DNA of 64,000 nucleotides, from IMG/VR virus record IMGVR_UViG_3300037245_001419, positions 62,001 to 126,000 of that record. One strand, given 5' to 3'. This document shows, in pieces, positions 21,944 through 63,997 of the stretch. Position numbers and translations under genes: made by a program. Source of the stretch: a virus. The first letter of the stretch is position 1. Each line of letters starts with the position of its first letter. The notes beneath the pieces were generated by a model, which searched no databases, was not told the DNA's origin, and worked only from the letters and a program-made list of their open reading frames with translations.

Positions 21944-22732
21944 ATGGCATCTATTACGGTATCAGGTTCAACAGATAATAAAAGTTATTTTACTATCTGC
22001 TCACCGATGGTTACAGCTGATGGCAACAATATAATCAATTGTAATAGCAGCTTACCAAATTCATACTGGGATAAAGAAACCCCATGTCATGATGGTGAGA
22101 AAGAGATGTTTAATCAATTAGAAATGGATGCATGGAATTCATTCGGTATTGATATGACTTATTATATTGCTGACTGGAATGTAGATTACGATAGAATTTA
22201 CGGTGAAGATAGAGATAGACATATATTACGTAAATTCTCATTTAAAGGATTTATACCTACATACCCAGAAGAGAAACAACGTTATACAAACTTTGGTATT
22301 GATGGGTTGGATAGTTTTTCATTCTGGTCTAATATAAGCCACTTTAGTTTTGCTTCTAGGTTTGATGATCAAGGAAGCACATGTTATGATGAATACATAG
22401 CACAGGAAGGTGACATTATAAAATTTGATTATAGTGGATTGTATTATGAAGTGATGCACGTTGTTAAATCTGCTAATCAATTTTTACAAACCCAGCACTC
22501 ATATACAATCGTTGTGAGAGTGTTCAGAGATATCCATCTAACACTCAGTCCATTGGTATCATCAGATCCATTATCTGCATTTACAGATAAGCCTAAAGAC
22601 ATATTTGATATATCGGACGACATAGATGACGAAAAATTAGATTTCCTATTTAATACGTCAGCTGCAAACGAAGAACCAATCACACCTGATCCACACCCTC
22701 CGGTAAACGACGACCCTTTTGGTGGTTGGTAA
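21944..22732 (+). CDS. Second gp14-like neck protein (paralogue)
   Basis: A 262-aa protein clearly homologous to the 267-aa protein at 37632-38435. Both contain YDR/K-x-YGEDRDRHI, a G-x-I-K-x-x-x-x-x-x-YEV segment and an IVRVFRD/IVRIFRD strand. Both end in FNTSAANEEPI followed by PPVNDDPFGGW. The 37632 copy sits in the canonical neck position. This copy lies 16 kb away among fibre and decoration genes. It may form a second neck ring, hold neck fibres, or replace gp14 at another stage. Confidence 0.82.
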   Translation: MASITVSGSTDNKSYFTICSPMVTADGNNIINCNSSLPNSYWDKETPCHDGEKEMFNQLEMDAWNSFGIDMTYYIADWNVDYDRIYGEDRDRHILRKFSFKGFIPTYPEEKQRYTNFGIDGLDSFSFWSNISHFSFASRFDDQGSTCYDEYIAQEGDIIKFDYSGLYYEVMHVVKSANQFLQTQHSYTIVVRVFRDIHLTLSPLVSSDPLSAFTDKPKDIFDISDDIDDEKLDFLFNTSAANEEPITPDPHPPVNDDPFGGW

Positions 22733-37631: not shown

Positions 37632-38435
37632 ATGGATGTAAGTGCAGTTGAATGTTCGGCAGTATTTAATATAAATCAACCCCAGGTTATTATGATACCT
37701 GGTTCTATATTTGCAAGTAGTTGCTTTAAGAAAGACTATTTTAATCATTTAACTAACCCGTGTTACGATAATGAAAAGAAAATGTTTGCCAACATAGCCA
37801 CTGAAATGTGGAACCAACAGGGCGTTAAACTCATCTACTACAAAGTTGACTATAACACATCTTACGACAAATTATATGGCGAAGATCGAGATAGACATAT
37901 CGAGAGACAATTCCCATTCCAAGGATACTTTATATTACCTACTGAAGAAGAGCTAATGACTCTATTTGGTATCGATGTAAAAGATATCTTCAAAATATAC
38001 GTAGCTAAACAACACTTCGAAGTCGCTTCTACTCTCAGTAATACAGGCTGTGGAGTATATGAATATGATCCATACGAACCTTGTGAAGGCGATATAATCA
38101 AAGGCAAGTGGAATGATACATTCTATGAAGTCATTGAAGTGAAAGATTCTGAAGGTACAATGCTTCAAACTAAATTAGCATGGACTCTTATTGTTAGAAT
38201 CTTCAGAGATAATCACTTTTCTGTTAATGAATTCCAACCTCCAATACCTTCAGTTAAAGCTAAAGAACTTGAAATATCTGCAGTTACAGATAAACCTACT
38301 GACATTCTCCAAATCAATGAAGAAATTGATGAAGAAAAAGAAGAGTTTCTATTCAATACATCAGCTGCTAACGAAGAACCAATAAACCCAGATCCTTACC
38401 CTCCGGTAAACGACGATCCCTTTGGTGGATGGTAG
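37632..38435 (+). CDS. 14: Neck protein, gp14-like
   Basis: A 267-aa neck protein (T4 gp14 is 256 aa). Shared features are the YYxxxYxxxxxxYGEDxxxx segment (YKVDYNTSYDKLYGEDRDRH), an FGIDVKD-type strand matching T4 FGMQVQD, and an EGDII step followed by a YEV strand. A DNDF-like acidic/aromatic terminus (NDDPFGGW) ends it. With gp13 it seals the filled head and makes the tail-docking platform. A paralogue lies at 21944-22732. Confidence 0.85.
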   Translation: MDVSAVECSAVFNINQPQVIMIPGSIFASSCFKKDYFNHLTNPCYDNEKKMFANIATEMWNQQGVKLIYYKVDYNTSYDKLYGEDRDRHIERQFPFQGYFILPTEEELMTLFGIDVKDIFKIYVAKQHFEVASTLSNTGCGVYEYDPYEPCEGDIIKGKWNDTFYEVIEVKDSEGTMLQTKLAWTLIVRIFRDNHFSVNEFQPPIPSVKAKELEISAVTDKPTDILQINEEIDEEKEEFLFNTSAANEEPINPDPYPPVNDDPFGGW

Positions 38436-39366: not shown

Positions 39367-39404
39367 ATTTTAACCTCTATATATAATAATAAGTGATTTA
39401 CAAA

Positions 39405-39412
39405 TATTTATA
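39405..39412 (-). promoter_or_regulatory. Minus-strand T4-like late promoter for the inverted gp13 gene
   Basis: TATTTATA on the plus strand reads TATAAATA on the minus strand, 38 bases upstream of the gp13 start. It is the only minus-strand copy I found in an intergenic, correctly placed position. It lies within the region just upstream of the HNH gene. Confidence 0.75.
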
Positions 39413-39428
39413 CTTTATACGGAATAAT

Positions 39429-39749
39429 ATGCCAATATATAGATGTCATTTCCCAGGATGCGATCACGTAACAAGAAATAGAAACCACATAGACTATCAT
39501 CATATCGTCCCCGTACATATGGGCGGTAGCAACAAACCCTTTAATTTAATACCAATATGCCCTACACACCACAGACATATTTTCATTCAAGGTGAGACAC
39601 AGGGTATTCACTCAGTCAGAAACTTAGAATCCATACAAATTAAGCATGTTTTAGAATCAACAGATGGAAAAGTCCTAATATATACAGACATGTATGATGA
39701 CAAAGAAAAGGCTTATTACTTCAATAATAACACAATAATTGACATGTAA
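39429..39749 (+). CDS. HNH endonuclease
   Basis: A 106-aa free-standing HNH nuclease. It has a Cys pair in CHFPGC (6-11), the catalytic YHHIVP (24-28 region), an Asn in FNLIPIC (N39) and the closing CPTHHRHI (44-51). A zinc-stabilised beta-beta-alpha-metal fold is expected. The ATG at 39429 is preferred, and an upstream GTG at 39393 would overlap the gp13 promoter. It may be a homing-type nuclease or a packaging-associated HNH protein. It occupies the junction of the gp13 inversion. Confidence 0.87.
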   Translation: MPIYRCHFPGCDHVTRNRNHIDYHHIVPVHMGGSNKPFNLIPICPTHHRHIFIQGETQGIHSVRNLESIQIKHVLESTDGKVLIYTDMYDDKEKAYYFNNNTIIDM

Positions 39750-39757
39750 TATAAATA
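39750..39757 (+). promoter_or_regulatory. T4-like late promoter (gp15)
   Basis: TATAAATA extended to TATAAATAATT, directly after the HNH stop and 30 bases before gp15. Confidence 0.8.
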
Positions 39758-39786
39758 ATTAAAAATAGATAGGTTAAAAGACTCTT

Positions 39787-40647: not shown

Positions 40648-41232
40648 ATGTCCAAAAAAGACAACTCTACAGATCTAGGTGCACTGAATAAATTATCAGA
40701 TGCGTTAGACGTAGATTTTGAAAGCGAAGAAATTTTGAATAAAGCTAACGAAATACAAGTAAGAAAAAATAATATCGTTGATACCTTGAATAAGGATGAG
40801 TGGACTTTAGATGATAAAATCTACATGGAAGCCGAGATCAAGGAAACCATTTGTGGTGTAGATGACGTTATGGATATGCTCAAGAAAGATATCAAGATCG
40901 GCACACAGCCGAGAACTCACGAAGTGTACGCAACGTTAGCGAAGATCAAAATAGATGCCTTAAAGGAACTTAGAGAACTAAGTAGATCAGTTATAGATAT
41001 GAAACTCGTTAAAGCTAAAGCAACGGGTTCCGGTTCAGCTAGTAATGTTCAAGTCAATAACTATAATATGTCATCGACCGATTTGTTACAGATGGTTAAG
41101 AAAGCTAAAAACAATAACGCTCTTAATGATGTAGAAGCAAAGTTTGAGATTGATGAGAAAGATGTAGCACTCAGTTCACAGAACCCATCAGATGTATCCC
41201 TTAGCTCGAAGAATAAAAACGATGAAATTTAA
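40648..41232 (+). CDS. 16: Small terminase subunit, gp16-like
   Basis: A 194-aa helical protein (T4 gp16 is 164 aa) expected to form the ring that regulates the large terminase and recognises DNA for packaging. The central segment QPRTHEVYATLAKIKIDALK, followed by ELRELSRSVID, aligns with T4 [20 protein letters not shown]. An acidic C-terminal extension rich in Ser/Asn is not in T4. Its last codons overlap the next start by 11 bases. Confidence 0.87.
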   Translation: MSKKDNSTDLGALNKLSDALDVDFESEEILNKANEIQVRKNNIVDTLNKDEWTLDDKIYMEAEIKETICGVDDVMDMLKKDIKIGTQPRTHEVYATLAKIKIDALKELRELSRSVIDMKLVKAKATGSGSASNVQVNNYNMSSTDLLQMVKKAKNNNALNDVEAKFEIDEKDVALSSQNPSDVSLSSKNKNDEI

Positions 41233-41554
41233 AGCCTTCTATGAATTAGATCAGAAAGAACAAGAGATATTTGAAGATGTCTTTAATAGCTATTATAAGA
41301 AAGGCTATTTCGGAGACATTGACAAAGAAGAGATTAAATCCCATCAGCAGGACTGGTTTAAAAAACTCAGTCACTTCATAAAAGAAAAGAACGCTAATGA
41401 ACTCGCAATGGCTTTATCTAATAAAGAGAACAAGCTATCCAGAGAATGGTTTACTCAAATAACCGAATTGAATGTCAGGTACAAAACCAAAGAAAAAATA
41501 TTAGAAATAATAAAGGGTTATGTCGATAAGACACGAAATGAATTGAGGGAATAA
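41222..41554 (+). CDS. 110-aa protein of unknown function between terminase genes
   Basis: A highly charged helical protein starting at ATG 41222 inside the end of gp16 (MKFKAFYELDQKEQEIFEDV). An upstream in-frame alternative start would extend it further into gp16 and is less likely. It ends one base before the ATG of the terminase-like gene. Its place in the packaging operon suggests a packaging accessory factor, without sequence support. Confidence 0.72.
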   Translation: MKFKAFYELDQKEQEIFEDVFNSYYKKGYFGDIDKEEIKSHQQDWFKKLSHFIKEKNANELAMALSNKENKLSREWFTQITELNVRYKTKEKILEIIKGYVDKTRNELRE

Positions 41555-41555
41555 T

Positions 41556-42335
41556 ATGTTCAAATTGAAAAGAACAAAACTTGAAAAGAAACATCAGCTA
41601 AAGCAACACACAAAATGCAAAGTTGATATTGTATACTTCGCTGAACATTATGTTAATATCAGCACCACAGACCGTGGTATTCACAAAATAGAGTTATATG
41701 ACTTTCAAAAAAGAGTATTAAATGAGTTTGTCAATAAAGAGTTTTCTCGTAATAGCATTCTATTAGCAGGTAGACAAGCAACAACTACTACTTTAGTTGC
41801 CATTTATATACTATGGTACTCATTATTTCATGAAGATAAATCTATTGCAGTATTACGGAAAAGACAATCATATGCTAATAATATTAATGGAATTATAAGA
41901 ACAGCTTATGATCAATTGCCTGACTGGCTAAAGCCTGGAATAAAAGGCGATAAGACTCGTACAGAATTTGGTACGGGCTGTGTAATACTATATATAAAGT
42001 CACATGAATCAAATCTAGCCTTACGAGGGCAATTTATATCATTGTTATATAGAGAAGAACACGAAGACCCAATAACAAAAGAAGATCAAGATTTTTTCTA
42101 TAGCGTTATACCCACATTATTATCCAGCGCCACAGCTGAAGTAATATTTACTTCGTACAAATCAACAGACGTATACAGAAAGGCTTTAGCTGGTGATAAT
42201 ACTTTTAAGCCTATTAAAATTAACTGGTGGGAAATACCAGGAAGAAGTGAATCATGGAAAAGGGATATGATAAAACATATCGGTCGTGATGGCTTCAATA
42301 AGGAGTTTGAATGTTTAACAACGACCCAAACCTAA
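41556..42335 (+). CDS. Terminase ATPase-domain paralogue with destroyed ATPase motifs
   Basis: A 259-aa open frame collinear with the first half of gp17 (42311-43909). Identical or similar blocks include DIVYFAE/DLIYFAE, YDFQKRVLNEFV/HEYQKRVLKAFV, IYILWYSLFHEDK/IYILWYALFREDK and KINWWEIPGR/KVNWWEVPGR. The P-loop SRQIGKTT is AGRQATTTT here (71-79), the Walker B YLDEFAF is YREEHED (165-171), and the C-motif SSTPNG is TSYKST. The nuclease half is absent. The frame is intact, it has a ribosome site and it overlaps gp17 by 25 bases. It is catalytically dead but apparently maintained, either as a regulator of the packaging motor or a recent relic of gene duplication. Confidence 0.85.
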   Translation: MFKLKRTKLEKKHQLKQHTKCKVDIVYFAEHYVNISTTDRGIHKIELYDFQKRVLNEFVNKEFSRNSILLAGRQATTTTLVAIYILWYSLFHEDKSIAVLRKRQSYANNINGIIRTAYDQLPDWLKPGIKGDKTRTEFGTGCVILYIKSHESNLALRGQFISLLYREEHEDPITKEDQDFFYSVIPTLLSSATAEVIFTSYKSTDVYRKALAGDNTFKPIKINWWEIPGRSESWKRDMIKHIGRDGFNKEFECLTTTQT

Positions 42336-43909
42336 GAGCTGCAGCTGAAAAGATTCGTCTCAGTCCAGAGATACTTACAAAATACGTTAGAGCATCAACA
42401 GATTTAATTTATTTTGCTGAAGAATTTTTCCAGATTGTAAATATAGATGAAGGTAAACAAAAGATACGCTTACATGAGTATCAGAAAAGAGTACTTAAAG
42501 CATTTGTTGGCGATGAAGACCCTCGTATTCATAATATATTACTATCCTCTCGTCAGATTGGTAAGACAACCCTCGCAACCATATACATTCTATGGTATGC
42601 ATTATTTCGGGAAGATAAAGTTATAGCCATCCTTGCGAACAGAGAGAAAACCGCAATGGAAATATTGAGAAGAATTAAGGAAGCCTATCATGAACTTCCT
42701 TTGTGGCTTCAACAAGGTATTGTGGACTGGTCTAAAACTACAATTACATTAGAGAATGGATCAAGAATTCTTTCAGGATCAACTGCGTCTTCATCATTTC
42801 GTGGTGAATCAATTGCATTACTTTATCTTGACGAATTTGCATTCGTACCTACTCACGTAGCTGATGACTTCATACGATCAGTATTCCCTACTATTTCGTC
42901 TGGTAAGACCTCTAAGATCATTATATCGTCAACCCCTAATGGTATGGGGCCGTTCTATCATCTGTACCGTGGGGCCGTTAAAAACGAAAATAACTTTAGA
43001 CCTATTAAGGTTAATTGGTGGGAAGTTCCAGGTAGAGACGAAGAATGGAAAGAAGCTATGATCCGAGATATCGGAGCAATCAGTTTCAACCAGGAATATG
43101 GGGCAGTGTTCTTAGGATCATCAAGCACCCTTATCGATGGTAACTTATTAGAAAGACTAGGCAACTATACTAAAGAACCAATAACAGTAATACATAAACA
43201 TTTAATGAGAGTATATGAAGAGCCAGAGCCTGATGGGTTCTATATTCTCGGTGTTGACTCAGCTAAAGGAACTGGTAATGACTATTCTGTCATACAAGTA
43301 TTAAAAGTTGTAGATGAATATGAGATACATCAAGTAGCCGTATATAGAAACAATATGATTTCTACTAATGATTTTGCTCAAGCAGTGATTGGAGTATCAG
43401 AATACTATAACGGTGCTTATGTCATGATAGAAAATAATGACGTTGGTGGTGAAGTAGCTCAAAGTATGTTCTATGAATTTGAGTTTGAGAACATCCTTAA
43501 CTGTGATAAAGAAGGAATTGGTATTAGATCTACCAAGAAATCTAAATTAGCTGCTAATATTTTACTAAAAAGATATGTAGAAGCCAGTTGGTTACATATT
43601 TATGATAAACAATCGTTTTTCGAACTATCAGTTTATGAAGAAACAGCACCTAATGTGTTTAAAGCATCAGGTAACGAGCACGATGACTGTGTCACATCAA
43701 TGTTCTGGGGTCTTTATTTTGTAAAGACTGAATTTTTTGATGGTAAAGACTTATCTAAGAAAACCATAGCAGAAAAATTTAGATTGAAAGAGGTTACAGA
43801 TGAAGAAGAACCAGTTCTGATTGATGACCGACCTGTAGTTGATGGTGATGGTTTCGACTGGTCTAAAGCAATAGCAGATCATGATAACAGTTTTAATGAT
43901 TTTGCATAA
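42311..43909 (+). CDS. 17: Large terminase subunit, gp17-like
   Basis: The 532-aa packaging motor (T4 gp17 is 610 aa). ATPase: Walker A SRQIGKTT (80-87), Walker B ALLYLDEFAF (169-178) and C-motif ISSTPNG near 204-210. Nuclease: LGVDSAKGTGND (first Asp near 315), MIENNDVGGEVA near 375 and a late acidic NEHDDCVTS near 457. The linker around VNWWEVPGR matches T4-type terminases. AAGGAG lies five bases before the ATG. Confidence 0.95.
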   Translation: MFNNDPNLRAAAEKIRLSPEILTKYVRASTDLIYFAEEFFQIVNIDEGKQKIRLHEYQKRVLKAFVGDEDPRIHNILLSSRQIGKTTLATIYILWYALFREDKVIAILANREKTAMEILRRIKEAYHELPLWLQQGIVDWSKTTITLENGSRILSGSTASSSFRGESIALLYLDEFAFVPTHVADDFIRSVFPTISSGKTSKIIISSTPNGMGPFYHLYRGAVKNENNFRPIKVNWWEVPGRDEEWKEAMIRDIGAISFNQEYGAVFLGSSSTLIDGNLLERLGNYTKEPITVIHKHLMRVYEEPEPDGFYILGVDSAKGTGNDYSVIQVLKVVDEYEIHQVAVYRNNMISTNDFAQAVIGVSEYYNGAYVMIENNDVGGEVAQSMFYEFEFENILNCDKEGIGIRSTKKSKLAANILLKRYVEASWLHIYDKQSFFELSVYEETAPNVFKASGNEHDDCVTSMFWGLYFVKTEFFDGKDLSKKTIAEKFRLKEVTDEEEPVLIDDRPVVDGDGFDWSKAIADHDNSFNDFA

Positions 43910-61333: not shown

Positions 61334-63997
61334 ATGGCGTTTAATTTTATATTAAAAGAAGATGGTGGACACCTTCTTCAAGAAGATGGTGTTTCGAATC
61401 TTATTCTTAATGAAATACAACTACCCCAAAAAATTAATTTGGAAGTTAAACGTACTGTAGCGACAAGTACTGACGTTGAGTACACATTTAGAATTACATC
61501 TCACGACCCAGTCGAATCTATTGATCTATCAAACTATAGAATCGTTCAGTACCTTAACACTAGATGGCCTGGTTCACTCACATATGGATTAGGTCAAGTT
61601 CCAACACCATTCGGTGGTGCTGGCCCTGGTCTAGCTGTATTCGCAGCCCCAGACGATATTGCATTTATAACTGAAGATAAACCACCCCACATATACCCAG
61701 AACGAGATAGATTTTCAATTAAAAGAGCAACTAGATTTGTTCAAGGTACATTACCGTTATCAGGCTCTGGTTATGAAGGTAACTCAATCACAACACACCA
61801 TGGCGTTAATACATGGTCTACAAATTCAGATACAAGATATGATTACGAACCTGAGCACTGCTATACCGCTACTACAGCTACTGACTTTGAAGACAATCAT
61901 ACATTCGTATTAGAATTCAATAGTACAGAAACTAAGACAAATCCAACGTCTCCTGACTGGGATATTGTTACCGAATATATAACCTCAGCAACTATAGACC
62001 CAGAGACTTCAGTTTACCCCTTAAGTGCAGACGGTGACAATACAAAAACATATAATAGAATAGTATACCCAACTAAAGATAATATTATAAAAGAGTTATT
62101 CCCAGCGACAGTTTTTAATAGTGATCCTTTACACTTACTACGTAAAGGCCCTGGTGCAAATGTGAGAATACTAGAATACTACCCTATTAGCGTTCCATTT
62201 AGAGATCAAGTTCTTGCACTAGGAACTTCTGCAGAAAGCTTAACAGACGTTAGAGCAGCAGAATTTTGGAAGTATACAGTTAATACTTTTACTGCAACTA
62301 CAATGGATCTAAATATGTTATCATCAGATTTCGATTCATCAACAGCGACATGGAATACTGAAGTTGACAACGTTAGCGCCAATATGTCAGACACTAATTT
62401 TACAGGTTTATCAGTCCATGACAATCTTGAATTTGCAAGATGGGAAATAACAGACAAAGACATTATTAAATCATGGATGATTCCAACCACATCAGCAAAT
62501 AATAAAGGCGTAGTTACAAAGTATGAAGTTGAATCTTCACCAGTTACAGAAGGCCCATATTTTTCGTCGTTGGAAACAACATTGGGAAATGAAACTAGAC
62601 CAGCATTTGTTATTAACACTAATTTTATTCTAGGTGGTGAACAAATTTGGACTGGTGCAATAAATTCTAACTGGTCTAATCCTGGAAACTGGCAAAATAA
62701 TGAAATACCAAGCATAGGATCAGTAGCAGCTTTTGATGGTGGTGTGTCAACAGTCCCATGTGTATTAGACTCAAACCAATCAGTATATAACCTAACATCA
62801 AATGCAGGTAGTGGAAGTATAAACTTATCGTCATTCGATTTGACAATTGAGGGTAGTATTTGTGACTTTAATGGATTCAGTTCATTGACACAAGAAACAG
62901 GAGGCAAATTAATATTAATAAACTCATGCGTATTAAATCTAGGTCAAGAATTTGCTACCGCATCTTTGCAAACATTGGAAATAACAGAAAATGCACATGT
63001 AAATTATTTCGCAGATAAATCTCTGAGATTGACTGAAAACTTTAATGTCAGTGGTACATTTATGATGCATTCTAATCTTACATTAGATGGGGCGCAATCA
63101 TCGTTTGGTGAAAATGCAATTATAGATTCTGAAAGATCTGGTTCTACAGCATTGTACACAATAACATTATTCGGTGGTTCACTTTCAAACACAGGCACTT
63201 TAAATACTAAAGTTCATTATACTTTTTCTGATAATGTAATAACTGGAAGATTTTATGGGGGAAAAGTATCAGTATCTAACGATGGCAGTCCTTTCGCTTC
63301 AACTACAACTATGACATTTGGAGATGGACAACATACATACCTTGATGGCCTCTTTATTAATAGCTCTCAACAAGGTAGCTTATTAGTAATAGATGCCTCA
63401 GCCAACGACCCAGATATATTAATGTTACAGGGATCAGGATTACTTACAATAGCAACAGGTTTTCCACCTGAAGATGAACTTATATTTTTAATGGGATCAA
63501 AAGATTGGATAATATCTACAGACCAACTAGATTTAGCATTTGTAGATAGTTTCGATTTAGGTGGAGGTGGTGGTTTTTACGTAAATGGTGATACTACTAG
63601 TATAATGTCCCCACTAACAGATATCATAATGCCACCATTAACAATAAATTCATCAACTGAAGTAATTGATATTAATAATAACATATACACACAAAACTTT
63701 ACAATGAATATAGGGTCAACAGTTAATTTTAATCACTTTAATATTAGTGCAGTTGATGCAATCAATATATCAGGAAATTCAGACTCAGTAAATCTATTAT
63801 CTGGAACTTCTCTCGCAGCATCTAACATAAATATTGTTGGAGATCCTTTAGATTATATAGACTTATCGACTGAAGAGTTTTGGTATATAAGTGCATCAGA
63901 TACATTAGATGTTGTTCATGTTGATTTAAAATCTTCAGATGCATCTGGTGGTGTAACTGGTATAGCAATAAGATCAAATGATTTGGGAGAACCATAA
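61334..63997 (+). CDS. 887-aa virion adhesin/fibre
   Basis: A large, beta-rich, Thr/Ser/Asn-rich protein. It starts with MAFNFILKEDGGHLLQEDGV (a repeated LQEDG-type attachment motif) and contains an IWTGAINSNWSNPGNWQNNE segment near 436-455 of the type found in autotransporter passenger beta-helices. Irregular parallel beta-helix repeats follow. Its stop shares a base with an ATG at 63997, so the next gene is translationally coupled and runs off the window. It probably forms a long fibre or baseplate-attached adhesin. Confidence 0.8.
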   Translation: MAFNFILKEDGGHLLQEDGVSNLILNEIQLPQKINLEVKRTVATSTDVEYTFRITSHDPVESIDLSNYRIVQYLNTRWPGSLTYGLGQVPTPFGGAGPGLAVFAAPDDIAFITEDKPPHIYPERDRFSIKRATRFVQGTLPLSGSGYEGNSITTHHGVNTWSTNSDTRYDYEPEHCYTATTATDFEDNHTFVLEFNSTETKTNPTSPDWDIVTEYITSATIDPETSVYPLSADGDNTKTYNRIVYPTKDNIIKELFPATVFNSDPLHLLRKGPGANVRILEYYPISVPFRDQVLALGTSAESLTDVRAAEFWKYTVNTFTATTMDLNMLSSDFDSSTATWNTEVDNVSANMSDTNFTGLSVHDNLEFARWEITDKDIIKSWMIPTTSANNKGVVTKYEVESSPVTEGPYFSSLETTLGNETRPAFVINTNFILGGEQIWTGAINSNWSNPGNWQNNEIPSIGSVAAFDGGVSTVPCVLDSNQSVYNLTSNAGSGSINLSSFDLTIEGSICDFNGFSSLTQETGGKLILINSCVLNLGQEFATASLQTLEITENAHVNYFADKSLRLTENFNVSGTFMMHSNLTLDGAQSSFGENAIIDSERSGSTALYTITLFGGSLSNTGTLNTKVHYTFSDNVITGRFYGGKVSVSNDGSPFASTTTMTFGDGQHTYLDGLFINSSQQGSLLVIDASANDPDILMLQGSGLLTIATGFPPEDELIFLMGSKDWIISTDQLDLAFVDSFDLGGGGGFYVNGDTTSIMSPLTDIIMPPLTINSSTEVIDINNNIYTQNFTMNIGSTVNFNHFNISAVDAINISGNSDSVNLLSGTSLAASNINIVGDPLDYIDLSTEEFWYISASDTLDVVHVDLKSSDASGGVTGIAIRSNDLGEP

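Follow-up and report, generated by a model that had tools for sequence, protein, structure and literature searches.

Few phage proteins are as conserved as the large terminase, which is also known to trigger bacterial immunity of the NLR-like (Avs) type. According to PMC12931631, both large terminase and portal proteins are recognised by Avs1 to Avs4. T4-type phage is known, too, to yield additional or incomplete products of gene 17, namely gp17', gp17'' and Hp17. The first two come from internal starts and keep the C-terminal part of the protein, and the Hp17 mutants are presented, in the part of PMC9958956 that cites Wu et al. (1991 and 1995), as recent gene 17 amplifications.

The DNA analysed here is a viral stretch of 64,000 nucleotides (IMG/VR record IMGVR_UViG_3300037245_001419, positions 62,001 to 126,000), referred to below as the window. 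Next to an intact gp17 it carries a second gene that encodes only the ATPase domain of the terminase and is predicted to be catalytically dead. Our tentative reading, together with that of a terminase mimic set out below, is that this paralogue is a stand-alone copy of the gp17 ATPase domain that has lost catalytic activity but remains functional and is maintained by selection.

An ATPase-domain gene overlapping gp17

The paralogue ORF (41556..42335, + strand) runs from an ATG to its stop with no internal stop and encodes 259 aa, and its 3' end overlaps by 25 nt the start of gp17 (42311..43909, + strand), an intact large terminase of 532 aa with ATPase and nuclease domains that is nearly invariant between near-identical phages. 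On BLASTP the paralogue and its own gp17 are collinear with 42% identity over 247 aa (E 2e-59); coordinates and alignment hence agree with the preliminary description, which had reported an intact stop-free gene of this length, overlapping gp17 by 25 bases and collinear with its ATPase half. The ORF stops at the ATPase domain boundary, the C-terminal RNase H-like nuclease domain being absent. The paralogue matches terminase families in PHROGs; no Pfam match was obtained for it, Terminase_6C being found in gp17 only, while PADLOC returned nothing and NCBIfam one weak match below cut-off. When the PDB was searched by sequence with the paralogue, T4 gp17 gave the only matches, and the profile alignment stops close to where the T4 ATPase domain finishes.

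Confidence in the predicted structure is high along almost the entire protein (pLDDT 89.9, pTM 0.89, 40 aligned sequences), the best-ranking structures in a comparison with it are 2o0h and 2o0j, both of the T4 gp17 ATPase domain (TM 0.84 by query length), and the second allele, that of a relative, is also predicted as a whole ATPase fold (pLDDT 88.4), with the reservation that an input alignment rich in gp17 may bias such models towards the gp17 fold. An assembly artefact was rejected, given that the gene occurs in two contigs besides the window's record and has only 42% identity to gp17. An intron or intein split of gp17 was likewise rejected, gp17 being a complete and separate gene. Intein-like or split gp17 genes do occur among the loci examined and are different from the window paralogue: gp17 of L003 has an intein-like insertion after the ATPase domain (1900-2943), that of Desulfovibrio phage 7757 has one next to Walker B (L091, 2836-4911), and in Campylobacter phage CP30A (L099, 2357-3073) a 238-aa 'terminase large subunit' ends in a sequence resembling an intein start, with homing endonuclease genes nearby.

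Gene neighbourhood, probable expression and origin

Upstream of the paralogue lie a probable small terminase, gp16-like by a weak phrog_445 match (40648..41232, + strand), and a 110-aa ORF without family (41222..41554, + strand) that has weak PHROG matches only and is conserved in the related locus L008. A T4-late-type TATAAATA site is found upstream of gp15 (39787) at 39750..39765 on the + strand and the next one at about 43949, before gp18, both by consensus match only. These sites bracket gp15, gp16, the 110-aa ORF, the paralogue and gp17, and the stretch from gp15 to gp17 may form one late unit. Furthermore, the Shine-Dalgarno-like AAGGAG of gp17 is situated within the end of the paralogue, together with the 25-nt overlap (42300..42335, + strand). 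Given the bracketing late-type sites and the position of this ribosome site, the paralogue is probably made with gp17, that is, late and together with gp15, gp16 and gp17.

This arrangement also bears on the idea that the paralogue is a translational leader, whose translation would set the dose of gp17 by coupling while the protein itself would matter little. The AAGGAG and the gp17 start within its last codons, as well as its conserved 3' end, are what such a leader would have, but a leader needs neither a folded domain of 259 aa nor constraint in the middle of the gene, and we consider this explanation highly improbable.

Two other features of the region were recorded. A possible small HNH endonuclease ORF lies between the neck gene and gp15 (window 39393-39749) and is also present in L002 and L008. 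A second head gene is duplicated as well, 21944-22732 and 37632-38435 both encoding full-length Hc2 gp14-like head-closure proteins that are 45% identical and whose last 25 residues are nearly identical.

In L008, whose gp17 is 81% identical, there is no paralogue and gp17 follows the 110-aa ORF directly with one base between them, which represents an empty site. In the tree the paralogues adjoin the gp17s of their own lineage on a long branch, with moderate support (96/78). An origin by gene 17 duplication, as proposed in the preliminary description, is accordingly favoured by the tree without being proven: the favoured scenario is a duplication within the window lineage, followed either by loss in L008 or by fast divergence after the split. 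At the duplication junction the search for microhomology gave only the shared 6-mers AATATG and GGAATA, which are not convincing.

Loss or alteration of the catalytic motifs

At the P-loop, the SSRQIGKTT of gp17 is aligned to AGRQATTTT in the paralogue, so that G and K have both become T, in both alleles. The degenerate stretch AGRQATTTTLVAIYIL (41766..41813, + strand) is identical in protein between the alleles and its DNA differences are synonymous only. Given the loss of the P-loop Lys, ATP binding by the paralogue would be unlikely. The Walker B segment (approximately 42044..42064, + strand) reads LLYREEH, where gp17 has LLYLDEF and the other allele LLFIDDH; its acids are thus altered and not erased, the window allele having Glu-Glu (Asp to Glu, catalytic Glu kept) and that of L001 Asp-Asp. 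The C-motif SSTPNG of gp17 is replaced by TSYKS and the following loop is deleted. The preliminary description had considered all ATPase motifs destroyed, which holds for the P-loop and the C-motif and is too strong for Walker B, where an acidic pair remains. T4 gp17 no longer supports packaging even when Asp and Glu are merely exchanged for each other within its catalytic signatures (PMC9958956), and the paralogue is very probably unable to hydrolyse ATP, as judged from these motifs. Across 38 gp17s, 72 positions reach a conservation of 90% or more; 35 of them are kept by both alleles, including the Arg and Gln before the P-loop, and 25 are lost by both.

Allelic variation between near-identical phages

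Near-identical relatives of the window phage are represented by two IMG/VR contigs (L007/L001 and L009/L002/L011), and both carry an open paralogue in the same place with 71% aa identity to the window allele. Between the same phages the 532 codons of gp17 differ at 17 nt and 2 aa (99.6% identity, dS 0.046), the sheath gene is similarly conserved and the flanking genes are ~99% identical. Along the paralogue, 3 nucleotide differences fall in aa 1-58, 9 in aa 59-86, 133 in aa 87-195 and 6 in aa 196-259. The variable block, about aa 87-195 or about 330 bp (41820..42140, + strand), has 57% DNA identity to the allele of the near-identical phages, differs at 65 of 103 aa and is the sole divergence spike in the about 12 kb compared.

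The variable block contains no stops, its indels are all multiples of three and the hydrophobic pattern is maintained across the alleles. When the same substitutions were randomly placed, the mean number of aa changes was 74 compared to the 65 observed (p 0.005); 0.2% of the null sets were free of stops, and none of 5000 was stop-free with as few aa changes. For the same block dN is 0.49 and dS ~2, which is saturated, so that the ratio near 0.24 can be read only as below one. The block is thus constrained at the protein level, and a pseudogene decaying without constraint was rejected. The preliminary description had preferred a dead paralogue kept by selection to a decaying duplicate, and in this respect it is supported by a dN/dS of about 0.2 in the variable block (with saturated dS) and in gp17.2, the comparable gene of a second lineage described below.

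A relic, in the sense of an ATPase-domain duplicate that selection maintains weakly or not at all and that is occasionally replaced by recombination with diverged copies in other phages, would account for the lost catalytic residues, for the rarity of the gene among relatives and for its evolving faster than its neighbours; the 3' third, with 4 replacement and 1 synonymous codon changes, also fits. However, both alleles are open with in-frame indels and fewer replacements than expected, they keep the hydrophobic pattern and a predicted complete fold, and a similar excess divergence is seen in gp17.2. Hence we regard a relic as very unlikely.

Concerning the source of the variation, point mutation in place cannot explain the variable block, whereas the exchange of an old allele can. 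Divergent alleles can also come by recombination without diversifying selection, and the alleles known are only two per lineage. A target of a diversity-generating retroelement was rejected: no RVT_1 match for a reverse transcriptase was found in the 211,777-base record, which may itself be a fragment, and indels occur among the differences, which also affect sites other than A. A silent allele-donor cassette elsewhere in the genome was rejected as well, either allele used as query matching the paralogue and gp17 only.

A comparable gene in Sinorhizobium phages

The Emdodecavirus phages phiM12, phiM7, phiM19 and phiN3 also carry an ATPase-only gp17 paralogue between gp16 and gp17, named gp17.2 in phiM12, which is about 195 aa long, is annotated as terminase large subunit and overlaps or abuts gp17. 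Between phiM12 and phiN3, gp17.2 shows 82% identity (dN 0.10, dS 0.47), compared to 98.6-100% protein identity and dS 0.06-0.11 for the other genes from gp13 to gp18, gp17 itself being at 99% with dS 0.1. No other fully aligned gene among the about 50 in the 49 kb around it diverges as much, the tail fibre being alignable over 475 of 901 aa only.

Hence gp17.2 resembles the window paralogue in being ATPase-only, in occupying the slot between gp16 and gp17 and in being far more divergent between close relatives than gp17. The exact position differs, as the window has the 110-aa ORF between gp16 and the paralogue, and the two proteins are 31% identical. Moreover, Walker A (GKTT) and Walker B (IDE) are both intact in gp17.2, which terminates at the C-motif, whereas the window paralogue does not keep the GK; a dead ATPase is therefore not common to both lineages. 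The best tree separates gp17.2 from the window paralogue, a shared clade being disfavoured without being rejected (AU p 0.07), and gp17.2 is a second case that is probably independent. A search in related phages, as the preliminary description had advised, has thus found the paralogue in two relatives and an analogous gene in the same slot of Emdodecavirus phages. Among the 181 T4-like loci in the matches listed, many of them redundant and 154 holding both a gp17 longer than 400 aa and over 700 bp of sequence before it, a tandem gp17 paralogue occurs in the window lineage and in Emdodecavirus only; about 45 further phage records with two terminase places lie outside this listing. A scan of genome_contigs gave no further case. 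In the literature searched, no description of gp17.2 or of a terminase decoy was found.

Possible roles of the paralogue

In two lineages gp17 is constant while the paralogue changes, which makes gp17 an improbable candidate for the partner that changes; one outside the phage core is likelier. The roles put forward in the preliminary description (a place in the motor ring, competition with gp17, or control of the switch between packaging and nuclease action) gain no support from the variation, gp17 being ~99% or more identical while the paralogues differ by 18-29%; a motor-ring role in particular fits less well because gp17 does not co-vary with the paralogue. A partner or regulator of the phage's own motor, which would bind gp17, gp16 or the portal and tune assembly, ATPase firing or the switch from packaging to cutting, is consistent with the gene position, the 25-nt gp17 overlap and the shared probable late unit; the conserved N- and C-terminal thirds could be binding surfaces, and T4 motors tolerate an inactive subunit (PMC8589836). 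Nevertheless, gp17 is nearly identical where the middle of the window paralogue differs at more than 60% of residues, it is also constant in the second lineage, and such a gene is missing from L008 and from nearly all other T4-like gp17 loci examined, which makes this role unlikely in our view.

The partner could also be a rival element, in which case a non-working TerL domain would poison the packaging motors of satellites or of other phages in the same cell, different alleles being adapted to different rivals. The probable production of the paralogue at packaging time (from late consensus sites only), the retention of the ATPase fold and of many gp17-conserved surface residues, and the variation of the alleles would all suit such a weapon, as would the reduced performance of T4 motors that contain subunits defective in ATPase activity (PMC8589836). 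It would however endanger the phage's own gp17 too, yet gp17 is the same between phages with different paralogue alleles, and we hold this possibility to be quite unlikely.

With some hesitation we read the paralogue as a non-catalytic mimic of the large terminase, under diversifying pressure and directed against a variable partner, most plausibly an Avs-type TerL sensor of the host or else a rival element. The mimic would face a partner that differs from host to host. The N- and C-terminal thirds of the paralogue are constant, and its middle is exchanged among phages by recombination, in the form of alleles that are old and functional. As a decoy it would occupy or block a host receptor that senses TerL (Avs-type STAND/NLR), and the true gp17 would stay frozen by its motor function while the mimic varies. 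A terminase look-alike that is unable to work as a motor is what such a decoy would be expected to look like. In the structural search with the paralogue model, TerL bound by Avs3 (8dgc) ranks 7 (TM 0.69); this match of a predicted model follows from shared TerL ancestry and is no evidence of Avs binding. The broader proposal, that some T4-superfamily phages keep a hypervariable, allele-swapping TerL-ATPase decoy against TerL-sensing receptors, which would have arisen at least twice beside an unchanging gp17, is more doubtful.

A varying terminase look-alike beside an invariant gp17 is a testable candidate for the escape from a sensor by a phage that is unable to change its terminase. Since phiM12 and phiN3 have Sinorhizobium meliloti hosts and complete genomes, the decoy idea is open to test by gene removal. 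With regard to annotation, an ORF of 190-260 aa labelled 'terminase large subunit' could be something other than a fragment or a working terminase.

Comparison with known systems

With the T4 gp17 ATPase domain (2o0h, 2o0j, 3cpe) the window paralogue shares the fold and is collinear up to the domain boundary at which it ends; it differs from T4 gp17 in being a separate gene without the P-loop GK and the nuclease domain, and with altered Walker B and C-motif. The PhiV-1 terminase, which is the Avs3-bound protein of 8dgc, also shares the ATPase domain fold with the paralogue but is a true terminase, at about 10% identity. As for the partial or extra gene 17 products of T4-type phage, gp17' and gp17'' keep the opposite, C-terminal part whereas the window paralogue is ATPase-only, and the Hp17 amplifications are recent whereas the window paralogue is a diverged gene.
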